This document shows, piece after piece, positions 11,121-40,967 of a stretch of DNA of 42,690 nucleotides. The stretch's first letter is position 1. The number at the start of each line of letters is the position of its first letter. Under the pieces are notes generated by a model, which did no database searches, was not told the DNA's origin, and saw only the letters and a program-made list of their open reading frames with translations. The stretch covers positions 1-42,690 of the forward strand of contig JAICYZ010000005.1 of assembly GCA_025933935.1 (NCBI GenBank), read 5' to 3'. This DNA comes from Chitinophagaceae bacterium (GTDB taxonomy: Bacteria > Bacteroidota > Bacteroidia > Chitinophagales > Chitinophagaceae). Both the position numbers and the translations under genes were made by a program.

Positions 11121-11152
11121 TAATTCACATTAGCACATTAACGCATCAGCAC
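11121..11152. repeat. degenerate 8-nt-period tandem repeat (TAATTCAC ATTAGCAC ATTAACGC ATCAGCAC)
   Basis: Four consecutive octamers just upstream of the ABC transporter ATG. Confidence 0.6.
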
Positions 11153-11161
11153 CTTTACATT

Positions 11162-12901
11162 ATGCCATTTCCTCTTCTCCAAATAAAAAATTTCAGTGTT
11201 GATTTTGTTACAGATTCCGGAACAACATCTGCCATAAAAAATATTTCTTTTGAGATAAATCATGGAGAAACGGTTGCAATTGTAGGAGAATCCGGCTCTG
11301 GAAAAACCGTTACTTCCTTATCCGTTTTGCAATTATTGCCCTCACCACCGGCACAATATAAAAGTGGTGAAATTCTTTTTTCAGAAGATAAAATTTCAAC
11401 TGTGAATCTTTTGAAACTTTCTGATAATGAGATCAGAAAAATAAGGGGAAATAAAATATCGATGATTTTCCAGGAACCAATGACGTCGTTAAATCCTGTA
11501 AAAACGTGTGGCTCACAAGTGATAGAAGCAATGCGGATTCATGAAAACATTTCTTTGAAAGCGGCAGAAGAAAAAACGATCAAATTATTTGAGCAGGTTA
11601 AACTGCCAAATGCTTCGTCTATGCTTCACCGTTATCCTCATGAAATAAGTGGCGGACAAAAGCAAAGGGTAATGATTGCGATGGCTATCAGTTGTAATCC
11701 TTCTTTGTTGATTGCCGATGAACCGACAACAGCGCTGGATGTTACGGTACAAAAAACAATTCTTCAATTAATTAAAGAATTGCAAGTAAAACAACAAATG
11801 AGCGTCATTTATATAACACATGATTTGGGGCTGGTAGCAGAAATTGCCGATAAAGTAATTGTGATGTACAAAGGAGATGTGGTGGAAGCAGGATCGATTA
11901 AAGATATATTTTTAATTCCGCAACATCCATATACTAAGGCACTGCTCAGTTGCAGGCCTGACGCTTCTTCGAAAGGGAAACGCCTTCCTGTTATCAGCGA
12001 TTTTTTAGGCGAAGGTATCAGGAATGAGCCGTCAAAAAATCCACCTTCAACTTTGAACCTTCAACCTTCAACCTTCAGCCTTCAGCCTTCAACGTTGAAC
12101 AAAAACAGCTTTCCTCTTTTGAAAGTAGAAAATCTGAAAGTTTATTTTCCTGTAAAGAGGAATTTTTTTGGGAAAATTTTAAAAGAATTTAAAGCCGTTG
12201 ATGATGTAAGTTTTACTGTTGACAAAGGCGAAACGCTGGGCTTGGTTGGTGAAAGTGGATGTGGTAAAACCACGCTGGGCCGCACTTTGATAAGATTGAT
12301 AAATCCGACATCGGGCAATATTTTTTTTAACGGAAAAAACATTGCCGGCATTCCGGATGAAGAATTGAGAAGAATGCGAAAAGATATTCAAATCATTTTC
12401 CAGGATCCTTATGGTTCTTTAAATCCGCGTTTAACGATTGGGGAAGCCATAAATGAACCGATGAAAATTCATTCTATTTTACCGACGCAAAAACAGCGTA
12501 AAGAAAAAATAATTGATCTGTTGGAAAAGGTAGATTTAAAACCGGAATATTTCAATCGCTATCCACATGAGTTCAGCGGTGGTCAGCGACAGCGTATTTG
12601 TATTGCGCGCGCGCTTGGACTCAATCCTGATTTTATTATTTGTGATGAAAGCGTATCTGCGCTTGATGTAAGCGTGCAGGCACAGGTTTTAAATCTATTG
12701 AACGATTTGAAAGAAGAACTTGGATTTACCTGTATTTTTATTTCCCATGATCTGGGAGTGGTGCATTATATCAGCAACCGCATCATAGTGATGAATAAAG
12801 GGAAAATAGAAGAAAGCGGCACTTCAGATGAGATATATTTTAATCCTAAGAAGGAGTACACGCAAAGATTAATCGCTTCTATACCCAAGGTTGCGTTTTA
12901 A
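11162..12901 (+). CDS. dipeptide/oligopeptide-type ABC transporter ATP-binding protein, two fused ATPase domains
   Basis: Two Walker A ([16 protein letters not shown]), two signature ([16 protein letters not shown]) and two Walker B motifs. Confidence 0.93.
12043..12098. repeat. degenerate 7-nt tandem repeat (ACCTTCA, 8 units) within the ABC transporter CDS
   Basis: ACCTTCA ACTTTGA ACCTTCA ACCTTCA ACCTTCA GCCTTCA GCCTTCA ACGTTGA; encodes [19 protein letters not shown] between the two ATPase domains. Confidence 0.9.
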
Positions 12902-13007
12902 TGTTGCACAAATTATCGTCACGCTTTCTCCCAAAAATTCTCTTTAATTCTTCCGGTGAAAACAAAAATTTGCATTATTTCTTGTTTTACTGATTTTCCC
13001 AAACGCT

Positions 13008-14576
13008 TTATTTAGCCGGAAACGGCAGAATCTGCCATCCGTTTCCTTTTCTTTCCAAATAGATAGAATCACTCAACGGGCTTTCATTGTTTGTTTTTGT
13101 AAGCGCCGTAGCAGCAATGATGATTTTATTTTGGTTTGCCGGAATATTGTCAAAAATAAAATGATAGAAATTGTTACCTGATAAAATGATCTCTTTTATA
13201 TTTTTTGGATCGTTAACATCGATATTATTCGCATCATTAAACTGGTAAATTATATAACGGTTTATCAGGTCATTTTCTTGATTTTCACGAAAATATAAAT
13301 CTACAGAATTAGTGAAGAAAGTTGTTTTAGAACTATCGTAGGATAAGATTGGTTGTTCCGGCTTTGATGAATCTATCCACGGCATCGGTGGTGGTATCGC
13401 AGGATATTTATAATAATTATTTCTCAGTGTATCGCTCCATCCGTTCGGATTGCTGGCAAACGTGGCGCTGCTGAAAAATACACTTCCTTCTATCTGCGGA
13501 TATTTTCTGAGAAATTGTATCTGATCCGGAAGTTCCAGTTTGTTTTTCCACGCATAAGATTTTGCTTCTAAAGCACGGTAAATTCCTTGTCCAATATACA
13601 ATTGCCTCCCATAAGTGTGCCTTGCCCACCAATCGGTAAGGACTTTGAAGCCAACAACTTTCTGGCTTACTTCCCAATATAATTGCGGCACTACATAATC
13701 AATCCATTTCATTTTCAGCCATAATAAAATATCGGCATACAGATCATCATAGTTCGTTACGCCAGCTTTTGTATTGCTTCCTTCCGGATCTTTATCAATA
13801 TTTCTCCATACACCAAAAGGGCTGATCCCAAATTGGCAATACGGATTTTCTTCTTTAATGGCCTTACTCAAATGAACAATGATGGAATCTACATTACTTC
13901 TACGCCAGTCATCCAACGTCAAGCCATTTCCATATTTTCTATAAGACGATGCGTCATTAAAGTCTTTACCGGCTATTTTGTAGGGATAAAAATAATCGTC
14001 AAAATGGATCGCATCAACGTCGTATCGTTTTACCACATCACGTACTACATTGACTACAAAATTTTGCGCGTCTTTATTTCCGGGATCAAAATATTTTGTA
14101 CTACCATAAGTGATAAACCATTCCGGATGCAGTTTCGTGATATGATTCGGAGAGATAGAAGACTTACCAACACGAAATTCTGCGCGATATGGATTCATCC
14201 AGGCATGAAATTCCATTCCACGTTTGTGCGTCTCTCTGATCATGAATTCTAATGGATCGTAATAAGGAGATGGCGGTTGTCCTTGTTTGCCAGTGAGATA
14301 TTCGCTCCATGGTTCATATTGCGATGGATAAAACGCGTCTGATGCGGGCCTGATTTGCACTATAAGCGCATTCATGCCATTTCTTTTATGCATTTCCAAT
14401 AACTTGATAAACTGATCTTTTTGCTGTTGTGTGCTTAAATTTCTTGAAGAAGGAAAATCAATATTTTCTACTGTCGCTATCCAAACACCACGAAATTCAT
14501 ACTTAGGTTGCGAAGATATTTTTTGAAGAAAAACAAAAGACAAAAGGAATAGAAAGAAGCAGTTTTTTTTTATCAT
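13008..14576 (-). CDS. DUF187/GHL10-type glycoside hydrolase-like protein, secreted
   Basis: Signal peptide; EFRGVWIATVENIDFPSS, MNALIVQIRPASDAFYPS, HAWMNPYRAEF, DAIHFDDYFYPY motifs. Confidence 0.88.
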   Translation of the reverse strand: MIKKNCFFLFLLSFVFLQKISSQPKYEFRGVWIATVENIDFPSSRNLSTQQQKDQFIKLLEMHKRNGMNALIVQIRPASDAFYPSQYEPWSEYLTGKQGQPPSPYYDPLEFMIRETHKRGMEFHAWMNPYRAEFRVGKSSISPNHITKLHPEWFITYGSTKYFDPGNKDAQNFVVNVVRDVVKRYDVDAIHFDDYFYPYKIAGKDFNDASSYRKYGNGLTLDDWRRSNVDSIIVHLSKAIKEENPYCQFGISPFGVWRNIDKDPEGSNTKAGVTNYDDLYADILLWLKMKWIDYVVPQLYWEVSQKVVGFKVLTDWWARHTYGRQLYIGQGIYRALEAKSYAWKNKLELPDQIQFLRKYPQIEGSVFFSSATFASNPNGWSDTLRNNYYKYPAIPPPMPWIDSSKPEQPILSYDSSKTTFFTNSVDLYFRENQENDLINRYIIYQFNDANNIDVNDPKNIKEIILSGNNFYHFIFDNIPANQNKIIIAATALTKTNNESPLSDSIYLERKGNGWQILPFPAK

Positions 14577-14760
14577 CAGGCTTTAAATTTTGTAAGGTGG
14601 CAATTTACAAACATCGGTTTAATATTTCCCGATTTGAAAAATGAATGTAAATAATAGTTCTTTCTTAACAGCCCGCAAAAAATGCTCAGAGACATTGGAG
14701 CACATGCCACTAAAAGAGAAAAGCTAAAAAGTATCGCATGGAAACATAATATAAAAATTC

Positions 14761-14973
14761 TCAAATAGCCACCAGTTCAGCTTTCAAGACGATTGGTTGA
14801 GGAACTGGTTTTCCTTCATCCTTTAAATCCTGAAGATACAATGCAATCGCATCTTTTACATTTTCTTTTGCTTCATCAACGCTATCTCCACTGGAATAAC
14901 ATCCGTCAAGGTCAGGAACTTTTGCCCACACCGTTCCGTCTGCTGCTTTCTCGAAAATTACTAAATATTGCAT
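14761..14973 (-). CDS. hicB: HicB-family antitoxin
   Basis: MQYLVIFEKAADGTVWAKVPDLDGCYSSGDSVDEAKENVKDAIALYLQDLKDEGKPVPQP, a typical HicB partial RNase H-like fold. Confidence 0.88.
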   Translation of the reverse strand: MQYLVIFEKAADGTVWAKVPDLDGCYSSGDSVDEAKENVKDAIALYLQDLKDEGKPVPQPIVLKAELVAI

Positions 14974-14990
14974 GTTCTAAAATTAATTTA

Positions 14991-15182
14991 TTATTTCCAT
15001 CGAGCCTTCTTTCTAATATCATTTAACACGCCAATAGAAGGCTCTCTATTATTTCCATGGTCAGGTAGGACTATTCTTATATCAGGTTTTTGCGGATTTT
15101 TAAAAATCTTATGACTACCGCTTTGGCGTGCTATATACTACCCTTCATCTTGAAGTTGCTTGATAATATCTCCTACTTTCAT
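14991..15182 (-). pseudogene. hicA: HicA-family toxin with one in-frame amber codon
   Basis: Manual minus-strand translation: MKVGDIIKQLQDEG*YIARQSGSHKIFKNPQKPDIRIVLPDHGNNREPSIGVLNDIRKKARWK*. TAG at 15138-15140 (codon 15) sits where HicA normally has Trp; otherwise full length and immediately upstream of hicB. Confidence 0.88.
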
Positions 15183-15364
15183 TACCTATGATGTAAAATT
15201 AAAAGGAGAATTATAACAGGAAAGAATTTCAAAGCCATTTTCGTTTGTCATTTCAATTTATCGGTTTATCACATGATTTAAAAATAAAAATGCAAATTAT
15301 TTCTGCTTTTACTGTAAGATTAATTTTTACTTCGCTCACTTGAAAATTAAATATTATCATTTTT

Positions 15365-15406
15365 TTCAACCTTCAACCTTCAACCTGGAACCTCAAACCC
15401 CGAACC
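15365..15406. repeat. degenerate 7-nt tandem repeat (TTCAACC, 6 units) at the 3' end of cysS
   Basis: TTCAACC TTCAACC TTCAACC TGGAACC TCAAACC CCGAACC; abuts the cysS stop codon at 15408-15410. Confidence 0.85.
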
Positions 15407-15407
15407 C

Positions 15408-16895
15408 TCACATCCTGCTCCAGCTCATATTTCCCTCCTTTTCATCTTTCATTTCAATGCCCAAATCAGCAAGTTGTTTTCTTATTTTATCAGAAGTGAA
15501 AAAATCCTTTTTTGATTTCGCTTCTTTGCGGATCTGTATGAGCAAATCCATAATTCCATTGAGTTGAAGGGAATTTTCATTCGGATCTTTTAATCCCAAA
15601 ATATCGTGGAGGTAAACTGTAAATTTTACTTTTAGTTTTTCCAATGTAGCAGCAGATATCGCATCTGTTTTTATCAATCCATCTTTCATTGAATTGATCA
15701 CCGGAACAATTTCAAACATATTCGCCAATACTTTTGCCGTATTGAAATCATCGTTTATAAATTCTTCAAATTCATCTACCAGCTTATTTATTTTTTCTTC
15801 AAGTTCTGTATCAGTCGCTTCCTGCATTTCAACAACAGGAAGCTTTTTCAGAATTTCAAAAGCTTCAAATAATCTTTTCAAACCTTTTTCTGCAGCTACC
15901 AGCGCTTCACTGCTGAAATCCAACGTGCTGCGATAATGTGTTTGTAAAATAAAAAAACGGATTACCATTGGCGAAAATGGCTGTGTAAGCAATGGATGAT
16001 CACCACTAAACATTTGAGTCAGTGTAATCTGGTTGTTATAACTTTTGCCCATTTTTTTCCCGTTCACTGTAATCATATTGTTGTGCATCCAGTACTTTGC
16101 CGGAGGCGTATGATTGCAAATAGTACTTTGCGCAATCTCACTTTCATGATGCGGAAACATCAGGTCCATTCCGCCGCCATGTATATCAAAACGAGGCCCT
16201 AAATATTTCGTTGCCATAGCAGAACATTCAATATGCCATCCCGGAAAACCTTCTCCCCAAGGGCTGTTCCATCGCATGATGTGTTTTGGTGGTGCTGACT
16301 TCCATAAGGCGAAATCAGCTTTATTTCTTTTTTCTTCCTGTCCTTCCAGCTCGCGTGTTGTTTCTAAAAGATCATCGACCACACGACCGCTGAGTTTTCC
16401 ATAATCATAATTTTCAGCGTATTTTTTTACGTCAAAATAAACAGAACCGTTTACGACGTAAGCATAACCCGCATCAATTAGTTTTTCGATCATCCCAATC
16501 TGTTCTACAATATGTCCGGTTGCTGTTGGTTCTATATTTGGGTCAAGGGTATTAAATTGCCTGAACGCCCAATGAAAAAGGTTGGTATATTTATGAACCA
16601 GTTCCATGGGCTCTACTTTTTCCAATTGTGCTTTTTTGGAAATTTTGTCTTCTGCTTCACGGCCTTCTTCTTCAAAATGGCCGGCATCAGTGATATTGCG
16701 TACATAACGCACTTTATATCCCAGGTACAATAAATATCTGTACACCACATCGAAAGTGATGTAAGGACGTGCATGCCCAAGATGACTTTCTCCGCTTACC
16801 GTGGGCCCGCACACATACATGCCCACATGAGGAGGATTTATAGGTATAAATTCTTCTTTTTCTTTTGTGAATGAATTATAAACTTTTAACGGCAT
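15408..16895 (-). CDS. cysS: cysteinyl-tRNA synthetase
   Basis: YVCGPTVSGESHLGHARPYITFDV, GWHIECSAMATKYLG, DLMFPHHESEIAQS, KKMGKSYNN motifs. Confidence 0.97.
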   Translation of the reverse strand: MPLKVYNSFTKEKEEFIPINPPHVGMYVCGPTVSGESHLGHARPYITFDVVYRYLLYLGYKVRYVRNITDAGHFEEEGREAEDKISKKAQLEKVEPMELVHKYTNLFHWAFRQFNTLDPNIEPTATGHIVEQIGMIEKLIDAGYAYVVNGSVYFDVKKYAENYDYGKLSGRVVDDLLETTRELEGQEEKRNKADFALWKSAPPKHIMRWNSPWGEGFPGWHIECSAMATKYLGPRFDIHGGGMDLMFPHHESEIAQSTICNHTPPAKYWMHNNMITVNGKKMGKSYNNQITLTQMFSGDHPLLTQPFSPMVIRFFILQTHYRSTLDFSSEALVAAEKGLKRLFEAFEILKKLPVVEMQEATDTELEEKINKLVDEFEEFINDDFNTAKVLANMFEIVPVINSMKDGLIKTDAISAATLEKLKVKFTVYLHDILGLKDPNENSLQLNGIMDLLIQIRKEAKSKKDFFTSDKIRKQLADLGIEMKDEKEGNMSWSRM

Positions 16896-17089
16896 ATATT
16901 GTTACATCTGTTTTTTATAAGACCAAATCAGGCGGTAAAGATATTCCACAGCCGACGATTTTCAAATTTACACTTATCCGGTGTTTGAAGTACCAACGCA
17001 GAATTCTGGTGTTTTTCATGATTTCGTAAAACTATAATGAAACAAAAACTTTTTTTATAAATAATTTTTAATTTTAATTAAAAATTATC

Positions 17090-17449
17090 ATGACCACTCA
17101 ACAAATTGCTGATCGCCTAGCAGAACTTTGCAAAAAAGGTGATTTTGAAAAAGCACAACAGGAATTATTTGCCGACGATGCAGTGAGTATCGAACCTCAG
17201 CCTTCACCGGGTTTTGAAAAAGAAACGAAAGGGTTAGAGGCAATTTTAGAAAAAGGAAGACAATTCAATTCCATGATGCAGGAAGCACATTCTATAAATA
17301 TTTCTGATCCAATCGTAGCAGGAAATGCAATTGCGATTGCGTTGCACATGGACGTAACAATGAAAGGTCGCGGACGTTCCACGATGTCTGAAATTTGTGT
17401 GTATGAAGTGAAAGATGGGAAAATTATTTCTGAACATTTTTTTTGGTAG
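17090..17449 (+). CDS. NTF2/SnoaL-like small protein
   Basis: 119 aa; QIADRLAELCKKGDFEKAQQELFADDAVSIEP...EICVYEVKDGKIISEHFFW, a SnoaL-like pattern. Confidence 0.8.
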   Translation: MTTQQIADRLAELCKKGDFEKAQQELFADDAVSIEPQPSPGFEKETKGLEAILEKGRQFNSMMQEAHSINISDPIVAGNAIAIALHMDVTMKGRGRSTMSEICVYEVKDGKIISEHFFW

Positions 17450-17999
17450 ATGAGTCTTCAATAAACTTTACCGCTTTTTCAAATCTTTGTTCATAATTCC
17501 CTGAAATAATGCACCATGGTGTAGATTGATTCACCATTGTGTCTTTGTAAAAATGAAAAAGATTTTTACGTATTTTTTCATCAGGGTATTCCCTTAAATC
17601 ATCTTCAACCCACGGCAAATCTGTATCACACAGCAAATACAAGTCATATTTTCTTTCGGCAATTCTATTCAGAATCCAATTTGTGCAATCGTTAAAAACA
17701 AATTCTGACCACACTTTCATTACATACATATCGGTATCAATGAATAATGAATGCTGAATAGTGAATGATGAATTTTCAAGCGCCAAAAGTTGATTAGTAA
17801 TTCTATCTTCCAGTTCTATTTGCCCTTTGGCAATTATAAGGAGATCATCAAACGTGTAATCAGCGCCGTTTTTTTCTAAATATTCCCTTGCATATTCCGG
17901 TACCCACAAGGTGTGGTAGCGTGCCGCCAGCTTTGCACACAATGTACTTTTTCCGGTAGATTCAGGACCGATGACTACTATTTTTTTTATTGCTTCCAT
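17424..17999 (-). CDS. NadR-like ribosylnicotinamide kinase (AAA/P-loop)
   Basis: GPESTGKSTLCAKLAARYHTLWVPEYAREYLE and LLCDTDLPWVEDDLRE; pairs with pnuC. Confidence 0.88.
   Translation of the reverse strand: MEAIKKIVVIGPESTGKSTLCAKLAARYHTLWVPEYAREYLEKNGADYTFDDLLIIAKGQIELEDRITNQLLALENSSFTIQHSLFIDTDMYVMKVWSEFVFNDCTNWILNRIAERKYDLYLLCDTDLPWVEDDLREYPDEKIRKNLFHFYKDTMVNQSTPWCIISGNYEQRFEKAVKFIEDSSTKKNVQK
17739..17773. repeat. degenerate 7-nt tandem repeat (AATGAAT, 5 units) inside the NadR-like CDS
   Basis: AATGAAT AATGAAT GCTGAAT AGTGAAT GATGAAT; sense strand encodes SSFTIQHSLFI. Confidence 0.8.
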
Positions 18000-18646
18000 T
18001 GTGGCATTTCTTCTGCTTTCGATAGATATTCATTCGCTCTTCTTCGCCATTCCATTAACCCCCACACAGCCATGATCAACAGGATAATGTAGTAAACACT
18101 GGTGAATACATAATGTTTGATAAAGTACAATGGAATCGACGCAATATTGGTAGCGATCCACCAATACCAGCTTTCTACTTTTTTCTTTGCCATCAACCAC
18201 ATTCCGGTAAAAGCGGTAGAACTCGCAAATGCATCTGCCCAGGGAATGGCACCAGGAGCGAAGTCCTTTTTTAAATAACTAAGGGAAGCAAAAATGACAA
18301 TATAAAATGTGGCAAAAAATAAAATTTCCTGCATCCATTCTTTTTTTGTGCTCCACGTTATATTTACAACATGCTCCTGTTGCTGATTTTTTTTTGCCCA
18401 CAATATCCAGCCATAAATACTCATTACGGTATAATAAAAATTCACGCTGGCTTCGCCAAATAAACTTCCTTTGAAACTTAAATAAACATAGAAGATCGTA
18501 TTAATTAATCCAGTTGGATAAACCCATATATTCTCTTTTCGTGAAAACCAAACACTTACAATTCCTGAGAATACGGCGATGTATTCAAGCCAGGTTGTGT
18601 CTTTCATTCCGGCAATAAATGCGTCGTATATTTCTGAAACGCTCAT
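17987..18646 (-). CDS. pnuC: nicotinamide riboside/mononucleotide transporter PnuC
   Basis: Multiple hydrophobic helices; VWFSRKENIWVYPTGLINTIFYVYLSFKGSLFGEASVNFYYTVMSIYGWILW and WYWWIATNIASIPLYF. Overlaps the downstream kinase by 13 nt. Confidence 0.92.
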   Translation of the reverse strand: MSVSEIYDAFIAGMKDTTWLEYIAVFSGIVSVWFSRKENIWVYPTGLINTIFYVYLSFKGSLFGEASVNFYYTVMSIYGWILWAKKNQQQEHVVNITWSTKKEWMQEILFFATFYIVIFASLSYLKKDFAPGAIPWADAFASSTAFTGMWLMAKKKVESWYWWIATNIASIPLYFIKHYVFTSVYYIILLIMAVWGLMEWRRRANEYLSKAEEMPQWKQ

Positions 18647-18727
18647 TCAATTTTTGTATCTAACGTCATTTCATTTCTAAAACGAAAACTCAAATCCTGC
18701 TTATTTGCTGGTTTACTGAAAGCATTT

Positions 18728-20641
18728 TTATTTAACCCTCTTTTTCAGATCTGAAATGGGCACAGACATCATTCTGCCAATCGGGTTATCGCCACGATAA
18801 GTAATTATTTTCAGCATCACTGCATCTGTCGGAGGCACCAGTGGTGATGTATATTTCGGATAAAAATTATCTGGAAAAGAATTGTCAAAACTGTAATAAA
18901 TGTCAAGCCCTTTTATTTCAGTACTTAAATCTATTTTAATGGTTCCGCTATCTGTTTTGCTTACATTAATAATCGGGTCATACATGCTTGGCGCATATTT
19001 AATTTCTGCAGCATCAAATCTTGGAAATTGCTTTTGAACCCGGTTGGAGAAGTCATCCCAGTTTCTTTTATCTTTTGGTGACCATACCGCTTCTGAAATG
19101 GCCATTGCCCGTGGCCACAACATATACTCCATATGACGCATGTTATAGATTTGCTCTGTCCATAAATTCGCCTGTCCACCAAGAATAAATTTTGGATCAA
19201 CACCGTCCGGAACGGGTTCAAATTCATAAGCTTTTCTCAATCGCAGGGTAGCATAAACATGCGGCTCAATTGAAGGGTCGCCCTGCATATAATCGAGATA
19301 GGCAAAATCGGTCGGACTCATTACCACTTCATGTTTCATCTTAGCCGCTTCAATTCCTCCTTTCATTCCCTGCCAGCTCATTACCGCCGCATTTGGCGCT
19401 ATTCCGCCATGCAAAATTTCATCCCAGCCCATGAATTTTTTTCCTTTTGACTCAACAATTTTTTCCAGCCTTTTTTCAAAATAACTTTGTACTTCATCCA
19501 TATTTTTCAGGCCTTCTCTCTGCATCAATGCTTTTACAGAGTCGCTTTTTTCCCAAAAGTTTTTAGGACATTCATCGCCACCCACATGGATATATGGAAA
19601 TGGGAATAATTGCGCTACCTGCGTCATTACTTTATCTAGAAATTCATATACTTTTTCATTTGCAGGGCATAGGGTATTATCAACCAAAGCGATCGGCGGC
19701 TGACCGTGAGACCAGTCCATAATTGGTTCTCCGGAACGAACGTGATAATTTTCAGCTCCTGATGTACACGATAATTCAGGATATGAAACTACAGCAGCGA
19801 GGCTATGGCCAGGGACATCAATTTCAGGTAAAATATTCACAAAGCGATCCTGCGCATATTTTACGATTTCACGGATATCATCCTGTGTGTAGAATCCGCC
19901 GTAATTGCGTGGTTCATCAGGGGTTGGCGGAGAAAAGGTTCCAAAGTAACCGACCTTTTTTACGTTCCATGCACCTACATCTGTCAGTCGTGGCAAACCT
20001 TTAATTTCTATACGCCAGCCTTCATCGTCAGTAAGATGCAAATGCAACAAATTGTATTTGTATTTTACCATCTGGTCAATAAAATCTTTTACTTCCGCTT
20101 TTGTAAAAAAATGACGGCTTACATCAAACATTAATCCACGCCAGGCAAAGCGCGGATAATCTACGACAGTGCAAACAGGAACTTCCCATTTTACATTTTT
20201 TACTATATTATTTTCTTCAATTTCTTTCGGCATCAATTGAAATAACGTTTGCATTCCATAAAAAAGCCCGGCGGGTTTATTTGCAGTAATAGAAATTTCA
20301 CTTGTTTTTACATTCAGCTTATATCCTTCATCAGCTAAAGAAACATCCTTAACTAAAGACAATTGTATTGCATTTAAATTTCCGTTTTTTGAATTGGCAA
20401 TAACCGGGATTGTATATCCGGTAACCTTTGAAATTTTCTTGGATAGAAAGGCTGCAACCCGCTTTGCTGAAGCATCTGAGGTAACAAGATGAATGCTGGT
20501 GTTTTTATTTAAAACAAAATTACCAGTGCCTTGTGTTACTGAAACCGGTTCAGGAATTAGCAATTGCTCTACATTAATTTTCTGTCCGATAACAGAAACA
20601 GAAACAAAAAATAAAAATGAAATGAATAAGCCTTTTTTCAT
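18728..20641 (-). CDS. GH20 beta-N-acetylhexosaminidase, secreted
   Basis: WRGLMFDVSRHF, LHLHLTDDEGWRIEI, PEIDVPGHSLAA, HVGGDECPK motifs; signal peptide. Confidence 0.95.
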   Translation of the reverse strand: MKKGLFISFLFFVSVSVIGQKINVEQLLIPEPVSVTQGTGNFVLNKNTSIHLVTSDASAKRVAAFLSKKISKVTGYTIPVIANSKNGNLNAIQLSLVKDVSLADEGYKLNVKTSEISITANKPAGLFYGMQTLFQLMPKEIEENNIVKNVKWEVPVCTVVDYPRFAWRGLMFDVSRHFFTKAEVKDFIDQMVKYKYNLLHLHLTDDEGWRIEIKGLPRLTDVGAWNVKKVGYFGTFSPPTPDEPRNYGGFYTQDDIREIVKYAQDRFVNILPEIDVPGHSLAAVVSYPELSCTSGAENYHVRSGEPIMDWSHGQPPIALVDNTLCPANEKVYEFLDKVMTQVAQLFPFPYIHVGGDECPKNFWEKSDSVKALMQREGLKNMDEVQSYFEKRLEKIVESKGKKFMGWDEILHGGIAPNAAVMSWQGMKGGIEAAKMKHEVVMSPTDFAYLDYMQGDPSIEPHVYATLRLRKAYEFEPVPDGVDPKFILGGQANLWTEQIYNMRHMEYMLWPRAMAISEAVWSPKDKRNWDDFSNRVQKQFPRFDAAEIKYAPSMYDPIINVSKTDSGTIKIDLSTEIKGLDIYYSFDNSFPDNFYPKYTSPLVPPTDAVMLKIITYRGDNPIGRMMSVPISDLKKRVK

Positions 20642-21596: not shown

Positions 21597-21646
21597 CGTT
21601 TTATGTTACAGTAAACAAAGAAATATCCGTGTTTCTGTTTTTGAGA

Positions 21647-22570: not shown

Positions 22571-22593
22571 TGAAATACGTTTGAATTTGAAAG

Positions 22594-25548
22594 TTAATCG
22601 CCGGGTAGATTTAAAATATTGCTTATCCGGAAATTTTGAATATCAATACTGAAAGTTATTTTCTTTAAAAACTTATTAGCTTCTGAATCTGTTTTTAAAT
22701 ATTCTTTGAAATCATTACTATAGATAAGAGGCACATAAATATTCACTACATTTTTTAAAAGCGATAATTGCAGTCCGCCAACATACAAAAATTTAGAAGA
22801 AGAAACATTTTTTTGCCAAGCTTCAGCATAAGTTCCGGCATCGAAAAAAATCCTTAAAGGAAGATTTGCAGGAAATAAATTATTGGGTAATGTGCTGTTC
22901 AAATTAACCGAAGCGATCCAGTTTTCGGATTGCCATCTGCTACTGACCGGATCAAGTCTGAATTTAAGTCCGCCGGTATTTGGTATCATGATTTGTTGTG
23001 CAGCAATTCCATCGTTTTTAAGAGGAATATCGCCATAAGATGTGGATGATGTGCGGCCTATAAAATAATTACCGTAGGTATAATCGTCACTTCCACTTGC
23101 GCCCAGTAATTTTGGTTCATACTGATAAGTAAGGCCAAAATCTTTTGTGCCGATGTAACCAAATTTTGCTGCAAAAATTCGTGCACTCAAGCCACCGCCT
23201 GTTGCATAATTGAAAAAATAGTTTCCGGTTGCATTAATCCTGTAAAAGCCCTTTCCTTGTTGCATTTGAAGCTGATAATTATAAGGATATAAAGAACGGT
23301 TATTTTCAAAATTGAAAGAAAATTGGTTGATATACCGGTGTGTTTTTTGAAGAGAAACCGGATATGAAATAAGACTATCGCTACCCGATTTGTATTCAAA
23401 ATTATTAAATAAATTTTCTGTTATTAAATAAGAACGAATATCGATCCAACTCTTCTTTTTACTTAAAATATCTGTTTTGAAATAAATTTTTACATAAGGC
23501 GTAAATTTCTCAAAACTTTCAAAAATTTTATTACCACTTGTATCCAGACTATGGTTCATTGAGAATGTAGCTGCATTCAGCCCAATTTGAATTTTTTGAA
23601 ATTGATTATCAGGATACCAATGATAATTTATGCCGCCAATTCCTCTTAATTTTTTGCTGCCCGTTGCGTACAGCGGAGCAACAAAAAACTGAAATTTCTG
23701 TTCCGGTAACGTATAATTATGAATCAATGCTCCAATCATGAAATCATCATAATAATTTTTTCCGACAGCAGGAGATAAAAAAAGGTAATTGTATTTGTCC
23801 GTGTTTCTCAAATTGAAAAAAGCTGATATTTTAAATTCTTTTTTTTCATGCGGTTGTAAACTTCCTTTTTTTGATAAGAAAGAAAATATGGTATCTACAT
23901 TTTTTTTGCTCACTTCTTCTACTATTTTTTTAAAATCTTCCGGATACGGATGTTTGAATTTCCAGCGATTGTAATATTCATGAAGACAACTGTCAAATAG
24001 TTCTCTTCCAACAAAATCTTGTAATTTTTTCATCCACAAGCTGGTTTTGTAATACGCAATTGCCCCATAGTTTGCTTCAGAAAAATCCTGGGAGCGTGTT
24101 TCAATTGGCTGATCTTTTTTCGAAGTAATTCGTATTCTATAAATCAGGCTTTGATCATCATTAGGAAGTTTTTTTTCAATAATGTTCTCCTTTTTTTCTG
24201 CCTCTTTTTCCGGATATTTTATGTTTTCATAACGGTTGTCAAAGTAAGTATTCATCCCTTCGTCCATCCAAGGATAATCTCTTTCATTCGTAGCTAAAAT
24301 TCCGTAAAGCCAGTTGTGGCCTACTTCATGTTCCATGATCATGTCCAGCGATTTTTCATCAGCTAATGGAGAAATACAGGTAATTGTTGGATATTCCATT
24401 CCCCCGCTGTAATCCGTTTTTGCTTCTACGGCCGTTACTATATTGTATGGATATTCGCCGAGCCACTTACTCCTTGTTTTGATGGCATCTTTCATAAAGG
24501 CGATACTATTCTTCCAAATATTTTTCGCTTCAGGTGGATAAAAAGCATAAACATCGATGATTCTTCCGGATTTCAACTTTAAAGTGTCATATTTTACCAA
24601 GAAATTTTTATCAGCAAACCATGCAAAATCATGAACATTATTTTGGATGTACGTGAGAGTTTTGGTCGACGGTTGAAGGTTTGAGGTTGAAGGTTGAGGG
24701 TTAGTTGGAGGATTTTTTTTCGCTGTTTTTTTAGTTGTCAGTTGATATCTCTTTTTTTCTTTTTTCTTTTTATTTCCTGCTGCCGATTCTTTGTTCGCTG
24801 CTGACTGCTGATTGTTGATTGCTGGCCGATTCTTTCCGGCAGTGTCATATTTTTTACCTGTCGCCTGTTCCTTCAGCCAGTTCACTTCATCTTCATCTTG
24901 CAATTCACCGGTAGCTGCTACGAGATAATCTTTTGGAACGGTAATCTGTACATGAAAATTTCCAAACTCACTGTAAAATTCCCCTTGCTCCAGGTAAGGC
25001 ATTGGATGCCATCCACGGTTATCATAAACCGCGGGCTTGGGATACCATTGCGTTATCTGAAAAGTATGATCCACATATCCACCCCGGGAAAAATTGAAAG
25101 GAATTTTTTCATGAAAAGGAGTGGTAATTTTTATGGTTTGTCCAGGCAAAAGCACAGAAGGTAAAATTAATTTTGCTACATCTATATATTGTGGATGGTC
25201 TTCCAGGTTGGCGGTAATTCCATTTACTTTAAAATCCAGTCCATTGATATAGCCGCGTTTGCTTTCATCGCTAAAATAAAAATCAGTATTTCCTAATTGC
25301 AACATTTGCTCACTGACAGCAGTACGGTCATTTTTATAAGCATCAGGCCAGAGATGAAACCAGATATACTGAAGCGTGTCCGGTGAATTGTTGGTGTAAT
25401 CGATAATTTCAAATCCATCCAATGTCTTTTGAACGTCGTTGAGTGTGACATCGATGCTATAATTTACCTGCTGTTGAAAATATTTTGACTGGCAAAAAGA
25501 AATAGGGATTTGGAAATAAAGAAAGCAGATTAGAAAGAGATTTTTCAA
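22594..25548 (-). CDS. M1-family metallopeptidase, secreted
   Basis: MEHEVGHNWLYGILATNERDYPWMDEGMNTYFDNRYE (HExxH...E); signal-peptide-like KNLFLICFLYFQIPISFCQ. TTG start at 25548 preferred because a TATATTTG promoter element overlaps the upstream part of the ORF. Confidence 0.88.
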   Translation of the reverse strand: MKNLFLICFLYFQIPISFCQSKYFQQQVNYSIDVTLNDVQKTLDGFEIIDYTNNSPDTLQYIWFHLWPDAYKNDRTAVSEQMLQLGNTDFYFSDESKRGYINGLDFKVNGITANLEDHPQYIDVAKLILPSVLLPGQTIKITTPFHEKIPFNFSRGGYVDHTFQITQWYPKPAVYDNRGWHPMPYLEQGEFYSEFGNFHVQITVPKDYLVAATGELQDEDEVNWLKEQATGKKYDTAGKNRPAINNQQSAANKESAAGNKKKKEKKRYQLTTKKTAKKNPPTNPQPSTSNLQPSTKTLTYIQNNVHDFAWFADKNFLVKYDTLKLKSGRIIDVYAFYPPEAKNIWKNSIAFMKDAIKTRSKWLGEYPYNIVTAVEAKTDYSGGMEYPTITCISPLADEKSLDMIMEHEVGHNWLYGILATNERDYPWMDEGMNTYFDNRYENIKYPEKEAEKKENIIEKKLPNDDQSLIYRIRITSKKDQPIETRSQDFSEANYGAIAYYKTSLWMKKLQDFVGRELFDSCLHEYYNRWKFKHPYPEDFKKIVEEVSKKNVDTIFSFLSKKGSLQPHEKKEFKISAFFNLRNTDKYNYLFLSPAVGKNYYDDFMIGALIHNYTLPEQKFQFFVAPLYATGSKKLRGIGGINYHWYPDNQFQKIQIGLNAATFSMNHSLDTSGNKIFESFEKFTPYVKIYFKTDILSKKKSWIDIRSYLITENLFNNFEYKSGSDSLISYPVSLQKTHRYINQFSFNFENNRSLYPYNYQLQMQQGKGFYRINATGNYFFNYATGGGLSARIFAAKFGYIGTKDFGLTYQYEPKLLGASGSDDYTYGNYFIGRTSSTSYGDIPLKNDGIAAQQIMIPNTGGLKFRLDPVSSRWQSENWIASVNLNSTLPNNLFPANLPLRIFFDAGTYAEAWQKNVSSSKFLYVGGLQLSLLKNVVNIYVPLIYSNDFKEYLKTDSEANKFLKKITFSIDIQNFRISNILNLPGD
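24664..24705. repeat. degenerate 7-nt tandem repeat (GGTTGAA, 6 units) inside the M1 peptidase CDS
   Basis: GGTCGAC GGTTGAA GGTTTGA GGTTGAA GGTTGAG GGTTAGT; sense strand encodes NPQPSTSNLQPST. Confidence 0.85.
24786..24827. repeat. second degenerate 7-nt tandem repeat (GCTGATT) inside the M1 peptidase CDS
   Basis: GATTCTT GTTCGCT GCTGACT GCTGATT GTTGATT GCTGGCC; sense strand encodes PAINNQQSAANKES. Confidence 0.75.
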
Positions 25549-25562
25549 AACGATTATTTCAT

Positions 25563-26018: not shown

Positions 26019-26432
26019 ATGAACATCTATGTAGGTAATCTCAGTTGGTCAATGACCGATGACGATTTAAGCAACTTATTCAGCCAGTATGGTGCTGTAT
26101 CTAGTGCAAAAATTCTTAAGGAAAAAAACACGGGCCGTAGTAAGGGTTTCGGTTTTGTTGAAATGGAAGATGATGATGCAGCTAAAACTGCAATCGCTAC
26201 ATTAAATGAAAGTGAAGTTCAGGGTCGTAAACTAATCGTAAACGAATCACAACCTCGTCCTGAAGGCAGCGGCTACAAGAAAAGCGGCGGCGGAGGCTAC
26301 GGTGGCGGCAGAAGCAGTGGCGGCTACGGCGGCGGCAGAAGCGGCGGTGGCGGCTATGGTGGCGGCAGAAGCGGTGGTGGTTACGGCGGCGGCAGAAACA
26401 GCGGCGGCGGTGGTTACAGCAAAGATTATTAA
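26019..26432 (+). CDS. RRM-domain RNA-binding protein with Gly/Arg-rich tail
   Basis: RNP2 NIYVGNLSW, RNP1 RSKGFGFVEM; C-terminal GGGGYGGGRSSGGYGGGRSGGGGYGGGRSGGGYGGGRNSGGGGYSKDY. Confidence 0.95.
   Translation: MNIYVGNLSWSMTDDDLSNLFSQYGAVSSAKILKEKNTGRSKGFGFVEMEDDDAAKTAIATLNESEVQGRKLIVNESQPRPEGSGYKKSGGGGYGGGRSSGGYGGGRSGGGGYGGGRSGGGYGGGRNSGGGGYSKDY
26285..26418 (+). repeat. Gly-rich coding tandem repeat (GGYGGGRS units)
   Basis: Repeated ggcggctacggcggcggcagaagc-like DNA. Confidence 0.85.
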
Positions 26433-27677: not shown

Positions 27678-27680
27678 AGT

Positions 27681-27736
27681 AATTAGCTAATTAGCTAATG
27701 AGCTGATGAGGTAATTAGCCAATATGCTGACATGCT
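27681..27736. repeat. degenerate 8-nt tandem repeat (AATTAGCT, 7 units) between divergent sucD and thyA
   Basis: AATTAGCT AATTAGCT AATGAGCT GATGAGGT AATTAGCC AATATGCT GACATGCT. Confidence 0.85.
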
Positions 27737-27795
27737 AATTAAACAGCAATTTGACAAACTCCTTCAAATTTTCACATTATTCTTAACTTGCGCGC

Positions 27796-31202: not shown

Positions 31203-31217
31203 GAACTTCGAAGTAAA

Positions 31218-33533: not shown

Positions 33534-33607
33534 GATTTACTATTTCAGTAAACAAATAAATAACCGGTATTTCGAATATACCTTTCCCTATAAAACAATT
33601 TCAAACT

Positions 33608-34606: not shown

Positions 34607-34769
34607 GATTTTAAGATCAGCTTTGATTTTCGTGGTGGTTCTCATATTTTTATCAAACAATTAGGAGTGAACTGGACTGGTTTTTGTAACCATATTTTAA
34701 AAGAACGGCTTTATTTTTTATCTTCCTATTTTATTTGGTGAATGTTTACGCCTCGAAAAATAGAATGTT

Positions 34770-35705: not shown

Positions 35706-35820
35706 TCGTTGGTTGTTGAAGGCGCCGGTAAAAGCACAAATAAGTACAATTTTTATTTTCAAATAACAAAAGCAAAAATCTCTTACTGAAACTATTATCG
35801 GATAAGCAAATCGTTTTTCT

Positions 35821-35828
35821 TATTTTTG
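35821..35828 (+). promoter_or_regulatory. putative -7 element TATTTTTG for the downstream E2 gene
   Basis: Matches TAnnTTTG about 40 nt upstream of the ATG at 35868; no clear -33. Confidence 0.35.
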
Positions 35829-35867
35829 AAGCGTCGGTTTTGATCAGTTTAATCTTAAATTATTTTT

Positions 35868-37208
35868 ATGAGCATGGTAGATTTAATAATGCCCAAGCTT
35901 GGCGAAAGTATCATGGAAGCTACGATATTGAAATGGCACAAAAAGCCGGGCGATAAAGTGGCAATGGACGAAACTGTGCTCGATATTGCCACTGATAAAG
36001 TCGATAGCGAAGTGCCTTCTACGGCTGAAGGAACGATTTCAGAAATACTTTTTAAAGAAAACGATGTAGTTCCGGTTGGTGCAGTCATAGCGCGGATTAA
36101 TACGAATGAAAATGTTTCTGAAAATAATGTTTCGCAACAAAATGCATCTGCACAGCAACATGAAGAAGCTGAAGTAATGGAAGAAGTTCCTTATCAGCCT
36201 GAAGAAAAAAAATCAATGAGTAACGGCGCATCAGGCATTCGTTTTTATTCGCCTTTGGTATTGAATATCGCGGCCAGCGAAGGAATTTCTATGAATGAGT
36301 TGGAGAATATTGAAGGTACAGGGCAGGATGGGAGAGTGAGCAAAAAAGATATCATGTCTTATTTGGAAAAAAGAAAAAATGCGCCTCAATCAAAACGAGA
36401 ACAAGCGCCACAAACAGAGCAAGTGCAATCGCAGCCAGCAGTGCATGAAGTGCCACAAACAACATCAAAGCAGGAATATAGTCCAACAGTTTATTCAGGA
36501 AACGTTGAAATTATTGAAATGGATCGCATGCGTAGGATGATTGCCAAACACATGATTGACAGTCAGAATGCCAGCGCTCACGTTACCAGTTTTACCGAAT
36601 GCGACGTTACCAACCTCGTTTTATGGCGCGAAAAAATCAAAAAAGATTTTGAAAAAAGGGAAGGAGAAAAAATGACTTTCACGCCATTGTTTGTTGAAGC
36701 TGTTGTAAAATGCATCAAAAAATATCCGATCATCAATAGCAGCGTGGACGGCGATAATATCGTGATCAAAAAAGATATTAATATCGGCATGGCAACTGCA
36801 ATGCCGACTGGCAACTTAATTGTACCAGTAATTAAAAATGCTGATCAGCTCAATTTAACAGGGCTTGCAAAACAGGTAAATGGATTGGCAAATGCTGCAA
36901 GAAATAACAAATTAAAACCGGACGATACCGCTGGTGGCACTTTTACTTTGACGAATGTGGGTACTTTTGGAAGCCTCATGGGCACGCCTATAATTAATCA
37001 ACCGCAGGTGGCTATTCTGGCCGTCGGTGCTATAAAAAAACGGCCGGTTGTTATTGAGAGCGAACAAGGCGACAGCATTGCCATCCGTCATATGATGTAT
37101 CTTTCATTAAGCTATGACCACCGGATTATTGATGGCGCTTTGGGCTCTACATTCTTAAATGCTGTGGCAAAGGAATTAGAAAACTTTGATGGAAAAAGAG
37201 GGTTTTAG
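35868..37208 (+). CDS. 2-oxo acid dehydrogenase E2 (dihydrolipoamide acyltransferase), second paralogue
   Basis: Lipoyl domain (DIATDKVDSEVPS), E3-binding domain, catalytic SYDHRIIDGALGSTFLNAV. Confidence 0.93.
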   Translation: MSMVDLIMPKLGESIMEATILKWHKKPGDKVAMDETVLDIATDKVDSEVPSTAEGTISEILFKENDVVPVGAVIARINTNENVSENNVSQQNASAQQHEEAEVMEEVPYQPEEKKSMSNGASGIRFYSPLVLNIAASEGISMNELENIEGTGQDGRVSKKDIMSYLEKRKNAPQSKREQAPQTEQVQSQPAVHEVPQTTSKQEYSPTVYSGNVEIIEMDRMRRMIAKHMIDSQNASAHVTSFTECDVTNLVLWREKIKKDFEKREGEKMTFTPLFVEAVVKCIKKYPIINSSVDGDNIVIKKDINIGMATAMPTGNLIVPVIKNADQLNLTGLAKQVNGLANAARNNKLKPDDTAGGTFTLTNVGTFGSLMGTPIINQPQVAILAVGAIKKRPVVIESEQGDSIAIRHMMYLSLSYDHRIIDGALGSTFLNAVAKELENFDGKRGF

Positions 37209-37230
37209 TGAATGGTGGGTGAGTAAATTG

Positions 37231-37279
37231 AACTTTCAACCTTCAATCGTAAACGTTCAAGCTTCAACTTTCAATTGAA
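37231..37279. repeat. degenerate 7-nt tandem repeat (AACNTTC, 7 units) filling a convergent intergenic spacer
   Basis: AACTTTC AACCTTC AATCGTA AACGTTC AAGCTTC AACTTTC AATTGAA. Confidence 0.8.
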
Positions 37280-37292
37280 CCTTCCGCAATTA

Positions 37293-38477
37293 TTACCATT
37301 CTCTCATAATATTCCCATTCAATATTTGCATGATAAAAAGGTGTTTATTTTCAAAATAATCAGGAATGCTTTTATTATTGTCATGGTAGACAGGACGGAA
37401 GTTAAAATCATGCAAAGGAGCGTATAAGCTATCATTAATATTTTCCATGAAATTTCCCGGATGATTGATTAAAATAGAAGTAAAATTATAAGTGGTTTCA
37501 AAACCTTTTTCAGCCATATCGCTTGGGTCTGTCCGATATAGACGAAAATATTTATCATCTAAATACTCTTTAAACCCATTATTTTTTACATCGTGATGCG
37601 GAGTAGTATAACGGATGGGAAAATCTTTATAAACATCTTTTCTATACAAACTTGAAAATCCATCCCAGTTAGGCATTCCAATAAAAACCAATGGATTTGT
37701 TTTTTGAATCGGATAACACGCATCAGCTAACTTTTGTGCAAAAGTTTCATCAAGGCTGGCGCCAATCACTACGATAGGTTTCGTAGTATCAACCAGATAT
37801 CTTAATCCCGCAGAAGAAATCGAACTATCGAGCATGATGGTTCTTATTTTTAAAAGCGGCTTGCCATCTACCCAGTTTATTTCTTTGAAATAATTATCAA
37901 TCCGGTTGTCATTTTTCTTTTTTACGAGGTAAATATTGTCTGTTCCATGCTTTTGAAGAATATAACTGAAGATTCCTTCACAATGGGATTTTAAAGTCGA
38001 ATTGACAATTAATAAAAAAGGATTTTGTCTTATGCGCCCATCGTTTGGATAGGTGGCGGAAACAAACGGAACGTTTCTTTGCACCGCGAACTGAGCCAGG
38101 ATACTGTATTCCGGCTCTTTCACTGATCCGATAATTAAATCTACGTTATCTAATTTTTTATTTTTTATTAAAGATAAAACAGGTTGTGTGGCAGATTTTG
38201 AATCATAGATAAATGCTTCTACGTGTTGCCCTTTCAAATTTATTGTGTCCAACGCAATTTGCGCTCCCTGCACGAAATCTGCTCCGGCGATGCTAAATGA
38301 TGGCAGGGATCTTTCCTGTTTTAATTTGTCTCCTGTAAATGCAGAATCCAGGTACAGCGGCGCAAAAATAGCTACATGGTAAGTTTTGTTTGGGGCCGGA
38401 TAACTGACTTGGGCAAATAAATGGTGCGGTGGAAAAAAAATAAACAGGACAATAAAAGATAAAAAGTATTTCTTCAT
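37293..38477 (-). CDS. type 1 periplasmic binding protein (ABC transporter substrate-binding-like)
   Basis: Signal peptide MKKYFLSFIVLFIFFPPHHLFA; VAIFAPLYLDSAF..., GAQIALDTINLKGQHVEAFIYDSKS, IIGSVKEPEYSILAQFAVQRNVPFVSATYPND. Start at 38477 preferred: the 13-residue extension in the ORF track is repeat sequence. Confidence 0.82.
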   Translation of the reverse strand: MKKYFLSFIVLFIFFPPHHLFAQVSYPAPNKTYHVAIFAPLYLDSAFTGDKLKQERSLPSFSIAGADFVQGAQIALDTINLKGQHVEAFIYDSKSATQPVLSLIKNKKLDNVDLIIGSVKEPEYSILAQFAVQRNVPFVSATYPNDGRIRQNPFLLIVNSTLKSHCEGIFSYILQKHGTDNIYLVKKKNDNRIDNYFKEINWVDGKPLLKIRTIMLDSSISSAGLRYLVDTTKPIVVIGASLDETFAQKLADACYPIQKTNPLVFIGMPNWDGFSSLYRKDVYKDFPIRYTTPHHDVKNNGFKEYLDDKYFRLYRTDPSDMAEKGFETTYNFTSILINHPGNFMENINDSLYAPLHDFNFRPVYHDNNKSIPDYFENKHLFIMQILNGNIMREW

Positions 38478-38512
38478 AATTCTTAATTCGCAATTCTTAA
38501 TTCTTAATTCTA
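38478..38512. repeat. degenerate 7-nt tandem repeat (AATTCTT, 5 units) flush with a start codon
   Basis: AATTCTT AATTCGC AATTCTT AATTCTT AATTCTA directly upstream of the ATG at 38477 (- strand). Confidence 0.85.
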
Positions 38513-38537
38513 ACATCGTACATCAGACATTAGCACT

Positions 38538-40100
38538 CTATTCCCATTCGATTGTTGCCGGCGGCTTACTGCTGATATCATAAACCACGCGATTAATTCC
38601 TTTGATATTATTAATGATTTCGTTGGAAACATAAGCAAGGAAATCATAAGGAAGATGCGCCCAGTCTGCTGTCATTCCATCTACCGAAGTAACAGCACGA
38701 AGTGCAACCGTAAATTCATACGTTCTTTCATCACCCATTACACCCACGCTTTTCACAGGAAGTAAGATAGCGCCAGCTTGCCACACGGTTGCATACAAAT
38801 CAAATTTTTTCAAAGCATTCACATAAATCGCATCCGCCTTTTGTAGTAACTGCACCTTTTCTTCCGTCACCTCTCCAAGAATTCTAATTGCCAATCCTGG
38901 TCCGGGGAAAGGATGGCGGTTTAGGAGGGAAGAAGGAAGACCAAGTTCTGCACCCACTTTTCTTACTTCATCTTTGAATAAAGAACGAAGCGGTTCTATC
39001 AGCAAAAGTTTCATCCGTTCAGGAAGCCCGCCTACATTATGATGCGACTTGATGGTAACGGAAGGGCCATGAACAGATACCGATTCAATTACATCAGGAT
39101 AAATAGTGCCCTGACCGAGAAATTCGATCCCTTCAATCTTGTGCGCTTCTTCATCAAAAATTTCTATAAAGCTTTTTCCGATCGCTTTTCTTTTTTCTTC
39201 AGGATCCGATTTTCCAGCGAGCTTTTTATAAAAATAATTTTTTGCATCTACACCTTTAATATTTAATCCAATGCTTTTACATGATTCAATCACCTGTTCA
39301 AATTCATCTTTACGCAATACGCCATTATCAACAAAAATTCCATAAAGATTTTTTCCAATAGCACGATGAATTAAAGTAGCAGCAACGGTAGAATCGACGC
39401 CGCCACTCAAAGCCATAATTACTTTTTTATCGCCGATCTTTTCTTTTATCGCAGCGACAGTATCATTTATAAAATGCGCCGGAGTCCAGTCCTGGCTACA
39501 TTTACAAACACTTATCAAAAAATTGCTAATTATTTTTTTGCCTTCCGCCGAATGATAAACTTCCGGGTGAAACTGTAAACCAAAAATCGCATTATTTCCT
39601 GTCCGAATGGCATCGCCAGGCGGGGTGTCTTTACTGTCAAAAGCTGCAACGGGAATATTGTGTGTAGATGCAGAAATTGAAAAAGTATCGGGAAGTTTTT
39701 TGATCGTATCGCTATGGCTCATCCATACATCAGAATCGTTTTTTACATCTTTCAATAATTCATCTGACTGGTTTTTTATCTGCAATTTTGATCTGCCATA
39801 TTCACGCTTATCACTTTTTTCAACAATACCGCCATATATTTTTGCAATCAATTGCGCACCGTAACAAATTCCCAGAACCGGAACTTTTTCAGCAATTTTT
39901 TTTACATCAACAAACAAAGCGCCTTTGTCATTTACCGAGAAGGGCGATCCCGAAAGGATCACTCCTTTCAGTGTGGGTGAAAATTCAATTTCTTTGTTGA
40001 ATGGAGTAATTTCACAATAAACATTCGCCTCTCTTACGCTCCTGGCAATGAGTTGCGTGTATTGGGAACCAAAGTCAAGAATCAGGATTTTTTCAGTCAT
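38538..40100 (-). CDS. guaA: GMP synthase (glutamine-hydrolysing)
   Basis: [70 protein letters not shown]-terminus. Confidence 0.97.
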
Positions 40101-40222
40101 GGCTGCGAAGGTAAATCGTTTATTGTTTCTATAATTTCATTCTTTATTCGAAAAAATAAACATTCAGAATTGTTTTAAAAATAAATTTTTCTTATTATTA
40201 CTTTTGGCATTAAAAATAGCAG

Positions 40223-40927
40223 ATGAAAAACTTAATCCTTCTTTTCGTTACTTCCGTCCTATTTACATCATGCGCTTCTGTCTCCGGAAATGGAAATGTG
40301 CGTGATGAAAACAGGGATATTTCTGCAATCGATGCTGTAAAAACGTCAGGGTCAATCGATGTGGAAATTAAAGATGGAAACAATTATTCATTGGTAGTTG
40401 AAAATGATGAGAATTTAATTCCTTATGTTATTACAGACGTAAATGGCGGCGTATTAAATATTCATTATAAAAATGGATATTCTATAATGAATGATCATGC
40501 AAAAGTGATTGTTACTGCCCCTTCTCTAAATAAATTGATTACCTCCGGTTCCGGAGATATCAGCAGCAATGGCATCATAAAAAGTAATCAACAGATGGAA
40601 ATTAGTACGTCCGGTTCCGGCGATGTGAACGTTGAGCTGGATGCACCCTCAGTAAAAGTAACGGGCTCAGGTTCCGGAAATATTTCTTTGTCGGGGCGAA
40701 CAAAAGATTTTGATTGTAAAATAAGCGGCAGCGGCGATATGAAATGTGCGAATTTGAAAGCAGAAAATGCAGCGATTCGTGTTTCAGGTAGTTCTGACGT
40801 TCATGTTTTTGCAAGTGTAAGTTTGAAAGTAAATGTGAGCGGTAGTGGCGATGTAACGTATAGCGGAAATCCCACTTCTCCGGAAATTCATATTGCAGGA
40901 AGTGGAACTGTTACAGCGCAGCAATGA
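40223..40927 (+). CDS. GIN/DUF2807-domain lipoprotein
   Basis: Lipobox LFTSC; repeated SGSGD motifs (TSGSGDIS, SGSGDVNV, SGSGDMKC, SGSGDVTY). Confidence 0.9.
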   Translation: MKNLILLFVTSVLFTSCASVSGNGNVRDENRDISAIDAVKTSGSIDVEIKDGNNYSLVVENDENLIPYVITDVNGGVLNIHYKNGYSIMNDHAKVIVTAPSLNKLITSGSGDISSNGIIKSNQQMEISTSGSGDVNVELDAPSVKVTGSGSGNISLSGRTKDFDCKISGSGDMKCANLKAENAAIRVSGSSDVHVFASVSLKVNVSGSGDVTYSGNPTSPEIHIAGSGTVTAQQ

Positions 40928-40946
40928 GTTTTAATTTGTCGACATT

Positions 40947-40967
40947 TGAAGGTTGATGCTTGAAGAT
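40947..40967. repeat. short 7-nt tandem repeat (TGAAGGT TGATGCT TGAAGAT) at the stop codon of the aspartyl protease gene
   Basis: Three heptamers in a 39-bp convergent spacer. Confidence 0.55.

Follow-up and report, generated by a model that had tools for sequence, protein, structure and literature searches.

Ten sites in the window, which is the whole 42,690 nt stretch of DNA analysed here, carry tandem arrays of 7 nt or 8 nt units, and in every unit family tested an invariant core of 2–5 nt was combined with variable spacer positions that were identical at all loci. These patterned arrays suggest a so far uncharacterised way of copying DNA, always in steps of seven or eight letters, rather than random decay. 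The window is a complete contig (C48) of a 4.13 Mb genome that was assembled in 452 contigs and is 88% complete; its genes and its relatives make Chitinophagaceae (Bacteroidota) the probable family.

Arrays were detected with TRF and a lag-autocorrelation scan (+1/-1 scoring, segments scoring at least 12), and 60 Markov-3 shuffles of the window served as the null. Nine lag-7 segments were observed against 0.37 expected (maximum 3), whereas no other lag from 5 to 11 gave more than two segments. Both methods located arrays where the initial annotation had placed them, and all ten sites are 7 nt or 8 nt arrays (Table 1). Eight of the ten were individually non-random, with an expectation of at most 0.10 per window. 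The remaining two, at 11121 (period 8, expected 2.9) and 40947 (period 7, expected 3.5), were not significant by periodicity alone; they are counted as members of the class because they match the unit families of the genome, for which zero matches are expected in shuffles. The 11120–11161 array, weak in periodicity alone, matched its family template at 24 of 28 positions (0 expected in shuffles). The array at 37228–37285 matched the CAACCTT family at 35 of 42 positions, again with 0 expected. A scan with the genome's own families covered all ten sites with five of them and found none in the shuffles. The annotation had stressed different unit sequences; several units do occur, but they reduce to these five families. 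CAACCTT alone accounts for five of the sites and the 8-mer TAATNNGC for two (11120 and 27680; written TAATGTGC/TAATTAGC in the family scan); ATTCACT, AGAATTA, and CAGCAAT have a single site each. The units previously given as AATGAAT, AATTCTT, and GCTGATT belong to the ATTCACT, AGAATTA, and CAGCAAT families, respectively. Neither TAACTGA nor a GGG core of the G-quadruplex GGGNATC type was found among the array units of the window.

Table 1. Tandem arrays of the window and the ABC transporter gene that hosts one of them
Feature	Position (nt; span in the family scan in brackets where it differs)	Strand	Context
8 nt array, family TAATNNGC (CACATTAG on the plus strand)	11120–11161	-	abuts the ATG of the ABC transporter, upstream side
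ABC transporter, two PF00005 stretches, OppD-OppF-like fusion	11162–12901	+	host of the 12040 array
7 nt array CAACCTT, about 8 units	12040–12100 (12035–12102)	+	in frame, linker between two ABC domains
7 nt array CAACCTT	15365–15407 (15359–15401)	+	adjoins the cysS stop codon
7 nt array ATTCACT/ATTCATT	17739–17773 (17736–17776)	-	within NadR-like AAA_28 gene
7 nt array CAACCTT	24664–24702 (24662–24705)	-	M1 peptidase loop
7 nt array CAGCAAT	24787–24830 (24791–24830)	-	same M1 peptidase loop as the 24664 CAACCTT array
8 nt array TAATNNGC	27680–27741 (27679–27728)	+	between divergent sucD and thyA
7 nt array CAACCTT, strongly degenerate	37228–37285 (37227–37275)	+	between convergent genes
7 nt array AGAATTA	38473–38521 (38469–38521)	-	periplasmic-binding-like gene; array directly before its likely ATG at about 38477
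Short 7 nt array CAACCTT, basis family match	40938–40973	-	past a stop codon

Two further repeats of the window are in triplet register, unlike the heptamers: an RRM-type RNA-binding protein carries a period-27/57 coding repeat in its Gly-rich tail (26282–26410), and a 2-oxoacid dehydrogenase E2-like protein carries a 15 nt coding repeat (KAETP) in its linker (5719–5759). On the minus strand of 14764–15182, an ORF at 14764–14973 (open in the stretch read) lies beside an ORF at 15000–15182 with an in-frame TAG at 15138–15140; we take the former to be HicB-like and the latter HicA-like.

The degeneracy noted by the initial annotation is real, but its restriction to fixed spacer positions around an invariant core had been missed. 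Each of the nine families examined, from Bacteroidota, Cyanobacteria, and Chloroflexota, had a p value between 0.0002 and 0.0074 when positions were permuted within each locus, a procedure that leaves possible shared ancestry of loci in the p values. In the GAACCAC family of G004 (G numbers denote the genomes compared), no changes were found at each of A, A, and C (0/41), against 19/41 and 17/41 at the next two positions. The 8-mer ATAAACNN showed one change in 240 cells across its TAAAC core (48 units), and CAACCTT in the window's own genome varied chiefly at C1 and C5. The same arrangement was seen in the GGGA-NNN units of Moorena, the CTCCC-NN units of Tepidiforma, and the GTTC-centred units of Roseiflexus. 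Random decay would hit all seven positions and the observed changes do not, indicating that the degeneracy is not random decay. A motif common to all heptamers (NRAY or YRNYYNY) was also considered and rejected: its score of 2.96 vs 2.62 in column-permuted units fell to 2.84 vs 2.66 (sd 0.11, not significant) when units were thinned to at least 2 apart.

At orthologous loci, the arrays were mostly lineage-specific rather than conserved, and independent arrays occupied the same gap. The ABC linker holds CAACCTT in the own genome, ACATCGG and CAATAGT in G010, ACATCGG-like units and CAATGGT in G007, TTACCAG/CAACTGG in G009, CAGCAAT in G018, and no array in other congeners. The gap of the NadR-like gene (before DTDMYV) carries ATTCACY in the own genome and G006, TTGTCAA in G003, and ACAGTCG in G007, and is empty in others. 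The TAATNNGC 8-mer upstream of sucD was absent from all 16 congeners with sucD, and the CAACCTT array after cysS was absent from all congeners with a readable flank; G003 carries a different array after cysS. In the nearest species, G014 (84–93% nucleotide identity), decayed or shorter arrays were present at the equivalents of 12040, 24664, and 38473, and the NadR gap was 24 nt shorter than in the window. The net differences between G014 and the window (24 nt and about 13 nt, one genome per species) were not clean multiples of 7. Downstream of the ortholog of 37293–38516, G014 (L324) has a perfect (TTCAATA)6.6 where the window has degenerate CAACCTT; the former is a young array at a refilled site. 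This comparison indicates that arrays turn over faster than genes and that one permissive gap is filled anew with units of another sequence. Within an ORF, every step of a 7 nt unit shifts the frame, so the period cannot be put down to coding selection. Nucleotide identity to G014 was about 93% across 15930–19498 and about 84% elsewhere in the window, perhaps as a result of recent recombination.

Array load ranged from very rich to none among related species and was patchy in distant phyla. The 14 nt word TTCAACCTTCAACC, with one mismatch allowed, gave 53 matches in the own genome vs 2 for the reversed control; across 60 relatives, G004 (23), G014 (16), and G046 (11) were enriched, and most congeners were at the control level. 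The 8-mer pattern TAATNNGCTAATNNGCTAAT was matched 145 times in G003, 85 in G018, 84 in G006, 32 in the own genome, and 26 in G011 (controls 0–2, own-genome control 0), and not at all in G004, G005, and G017, which belong to the same genus as the rich G003, G018, and G006. Periods 7 and 8 (with 14, 16, and 21) dominated the short-unit arrays in sampled sequence of G004 (24 period-7 and 8 period-8 arrays in 382 kb), the single-contig genome G024 (6 period-7 arrays in 200 kb), and G057 (8 period-7 arrays in 120 kb); the sampled sequence of G016, G035, and G026 held no period-7 arrays. All these densities are those of samples, and that of the own genome was partly chosen for holding hits; its unbiased part (L011–L020 and L031–L050; 184 kb, mostly small contigs) contained one period-7 and one period-8 array, so the window is denser in arrays than the genome average.

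Among the matches listed for (TTCAACC)x3 in named genomes were Ferruginibacter, Moorena, Roseiflexus, Anaerolineae, Verrucomicrobia, Prevotella, and others. An 823 kb multi-phylum set, which was selected by a heptamer bait and shows the periods accompanying such arrays rather than a bacterial average, contained, with the bait excluded, 146 period-7 and 20 period-8 arrays, 5 each with periods 6 and 9, and none with period 5. The peak at period 7 (and 8) was thus sharp both in several members of the order and in the multi-phylum set, and that at period 7 was present in both near-perfect (25) and degenerate (177) arrays, suggesting that the period is apparently fixed when an array forms. In G004, 32 of 38 period-7 or period-8 arrays lay within the approximately 14% of the DNA outside ORFs, the coding arrays being a minority, and many arrays were at most 30 nt from a gene end, as expected of weakly constrained DNA. 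On L064 of G004, four identical 30 nt stretches of ATAAACGATTAAACCC repeats (7116, 9787, 9989, and 12155) lie in one 12 kb region and form a higher-order 16 nt repeat. With their excess of 7 nt units over other lengths, dispersed shared families, mainly intergenic position, and patchy occurrence among relatives, the arrays belong with the known heptanucleotide STRR/LSSR class. The earlier comparison with cyanobacterial STRRs was therefore apt, and the common period and scattered placement on which it rested hold. Neither outcome that the annotation had named as refuting it came about: periods 7 and 8 are in excess, and the arrays are not conserved across orthologous loci.

Our preferred reading, offered tentatively and with its chances put somewhat below even, is that these fast-turnover arrays of the LSSR/STRR class arise by local tandem duplication in 7 nt or 8 nt steps in weakly constrained DNA, with a core being required. 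Arrays would be born and would expand locally in gene gaps and inter-domain linkers, and the duplication step would be fixed at 7, less often 8, nt. Duplication would depend on a short core, such as AAC in CAACCTT/GAACCAC, TAAAC in ATAAACNN, or GGGA in GGGAATC. Units without the core would cease to be copied and then decay, whereas spacer mutants would still be copied; arrays whose copying is tied to the core would thus finish with an invariant core and variable spacers. Candidate agents are the pause or slip geometry of a polymerase and an enzyme that nicks or cleaves DNA at a short site. No candidate enzyme for the duplication was found, and Y-family polymerases were present in all eleven genomes tested and hence uninformative on the agent.

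Identical units were adjacent modestly more often than in order-shuffled arrays in several families (8 vs 3.7 ± 1.6, 23 vs 17.8 ± 2.1, and 36 vs 29.4 ± 2.0). Unit pairs common to different loci were not in excess over order-shuffled arrays, and unit triples were in excess in two families only. Raised neighbour identity without an excess of shared pairs points to local duplication rather than general block copying. The mobile repeat named among possible mechanisms in the initial annotation gains no support from these pair counts; no target-site signature was seen, and no flanking duplication was evident in the NadR-gap comparison, the sole clean case. Isolated two-copy 7 nt duplications outside arrays numbered 100 vs 68.5 in array-rich genomes and 24 vs 33 in array-poor genomes, and this excess in array-rich genomes only points to a genome-level property. 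Against local duplication, some arrays recur in G014 in decayed or shorter form with length differences off multiples of 7, neighbour identity is raised modestly, two families share some unit triples between loci, no enzyme emerged, the unit motif common to the phyla is weak, and the common units could stem from copying between loci. A regulatory role of the arrays is possible and is not needed by the model. It is conceivable, though on balance doubtful, that bacteria dispersed over several phyla share an uncharacterised process of DNA handling, active in some congeners and not in others, which reads a core of 3–5 nt and duplicates DNA in strict 7 nt or 8 nt steps; each genome would then write its own core-and-spacer arrays into DNA that is free to change.

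Simple slippage during replication, starting from chance seeds without any recognised core, the 7 nt set by the polymerase footprint, and unit recurrence due to base composition, is an unlikely explanation. Mismatch repair would be expected to miss loops of 7 nt, the arrays bear a signature of local expansion, and, according to the literature passages considered, period 7 is the commonest long-unit repeat in many bacteria. However, slippage predicts neither that the invariant positions coincide across all loci of one genome nor that a 14 nt word stands at 53 places vs 2 in the control with background levels in most congeners, and the uniform per-position variation that it does predict is contradicted unless mutation is strongly position-dependent. 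The invariant core and free spacer resemble a binding motif, and the mostly intergenic arrays, many of them within 30 nt of a gene end, might be binding sites under selection whose core is read by a protein that binds DNA or RNA; a role of this kind has been suggested for TAACTGA repeats that precede start codons. For the present arrays, this is made improbable by the same families occurring in ORF linkers, past stop codons, between convergent genes, and in either orientation, by congeners gaining or losing arrays with different units at one site, and by the several unrelated cores in each genome.

Arrays might also spread from locus to locus through template switching or gene conversion wherever short sequences match, a reading of similarly low probability. 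It would suit the same few families at dozens of dispersed loci here that are missing from congeners, and the NadR-gap array joins a coding stretch (TTATTCATTGA) resembling its unit, but the counts of shared pairs and triples speak against it. Templating of 7 nt units by a telomerase-like or other reverse transcriptase is very improbable despite the short fixed unit, lineage-specific sequence, and degeneracy that it would share with the arrays. Each genome has several unit families, and RVT_1-type enzymes are disfavoured as the agent because their presence does not track arrays: G057 and G028 have arrays but no RVT_1 match, whereas the array-poor G016, G026, and G035 have one or two. An assembly artefact might be suspected in a fragmented MAG of 452 contigs; its probability is negligible, and it is refuted by the arrays in the single-contig G024 and in isolates such as Tepidiforma flava NZ_CP115149 and Moorena bouillonii.

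The question of why long bacterial microsatellites favour a unit of 7 dates from 2007. A core/spacer rule common to loci, families, and phyla, together with an on/off contrast within one genus, turns it into one that can be tested: what gene causes a genome to write 7 nt arrays, and what reads the core. Through such arrays, conserved proteins also acquire new repetitive peptides in their linkers, in a non-triplet register.

According to passages of PMC4679880 and PMC4692102, Mrazek et al. (2007) reported that heptanucleotides are the most abundant among long simple sequence repeats of 5–11 nt and are scattered across phyla, and proposed that 7 nt is the polymerase footprint. The present arrays differ from these LSSRs in their degeneracy and position-specific variation, which are undescribed in those passages. 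Like cyanobacterial STRRs and the GGGGA(C/T)T and GGGNATC repeats of Nostoc and Xanthomonas, as excerpted from PMC4692102, they are dispersed, mostly intergenic 7 nt tandem units, and, as for the cyanobacterial STRRs, length and sequence differ between close relatives. Unlike the STRRs in that excerpt, they occur in Bacteroidota, have non-G4 units, lie in ORF linkers, have a parallel 8 nt class, and show fixed core/spacer variation. TAACTGA direct repeats, described in the passages of MacGregor 2015 (PMC4679880) from Beggiatoaceae, cyanobacteria, and five Bacteroidetes, likewise form patchy intergenic heptamer arrays, some beside heptamer repeats of other sequence; as described there, they are a single fixed heptamer near start codons with variants rarely repeated, whereas many degenerate families occur here. 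Rapid independent birth in intergenic and disordered protein regions is shared with the tandem repeats of archaeal Borgs (PMC9879509), but the Borg units found inside ORFs always have lengths divisible by three, are nearly perfect, and are each confined to one locus, whereas the present units are 7 nt, degenerate, and drawn from recurring families. Relative to the literature passages considered, the new features are a fixed core/spacer rule that holds across loci and phyla, one linker filled with different units in different congeners, a parallel 8 nt class, and arrays inside ORFs despite a unit length that three does not divide.
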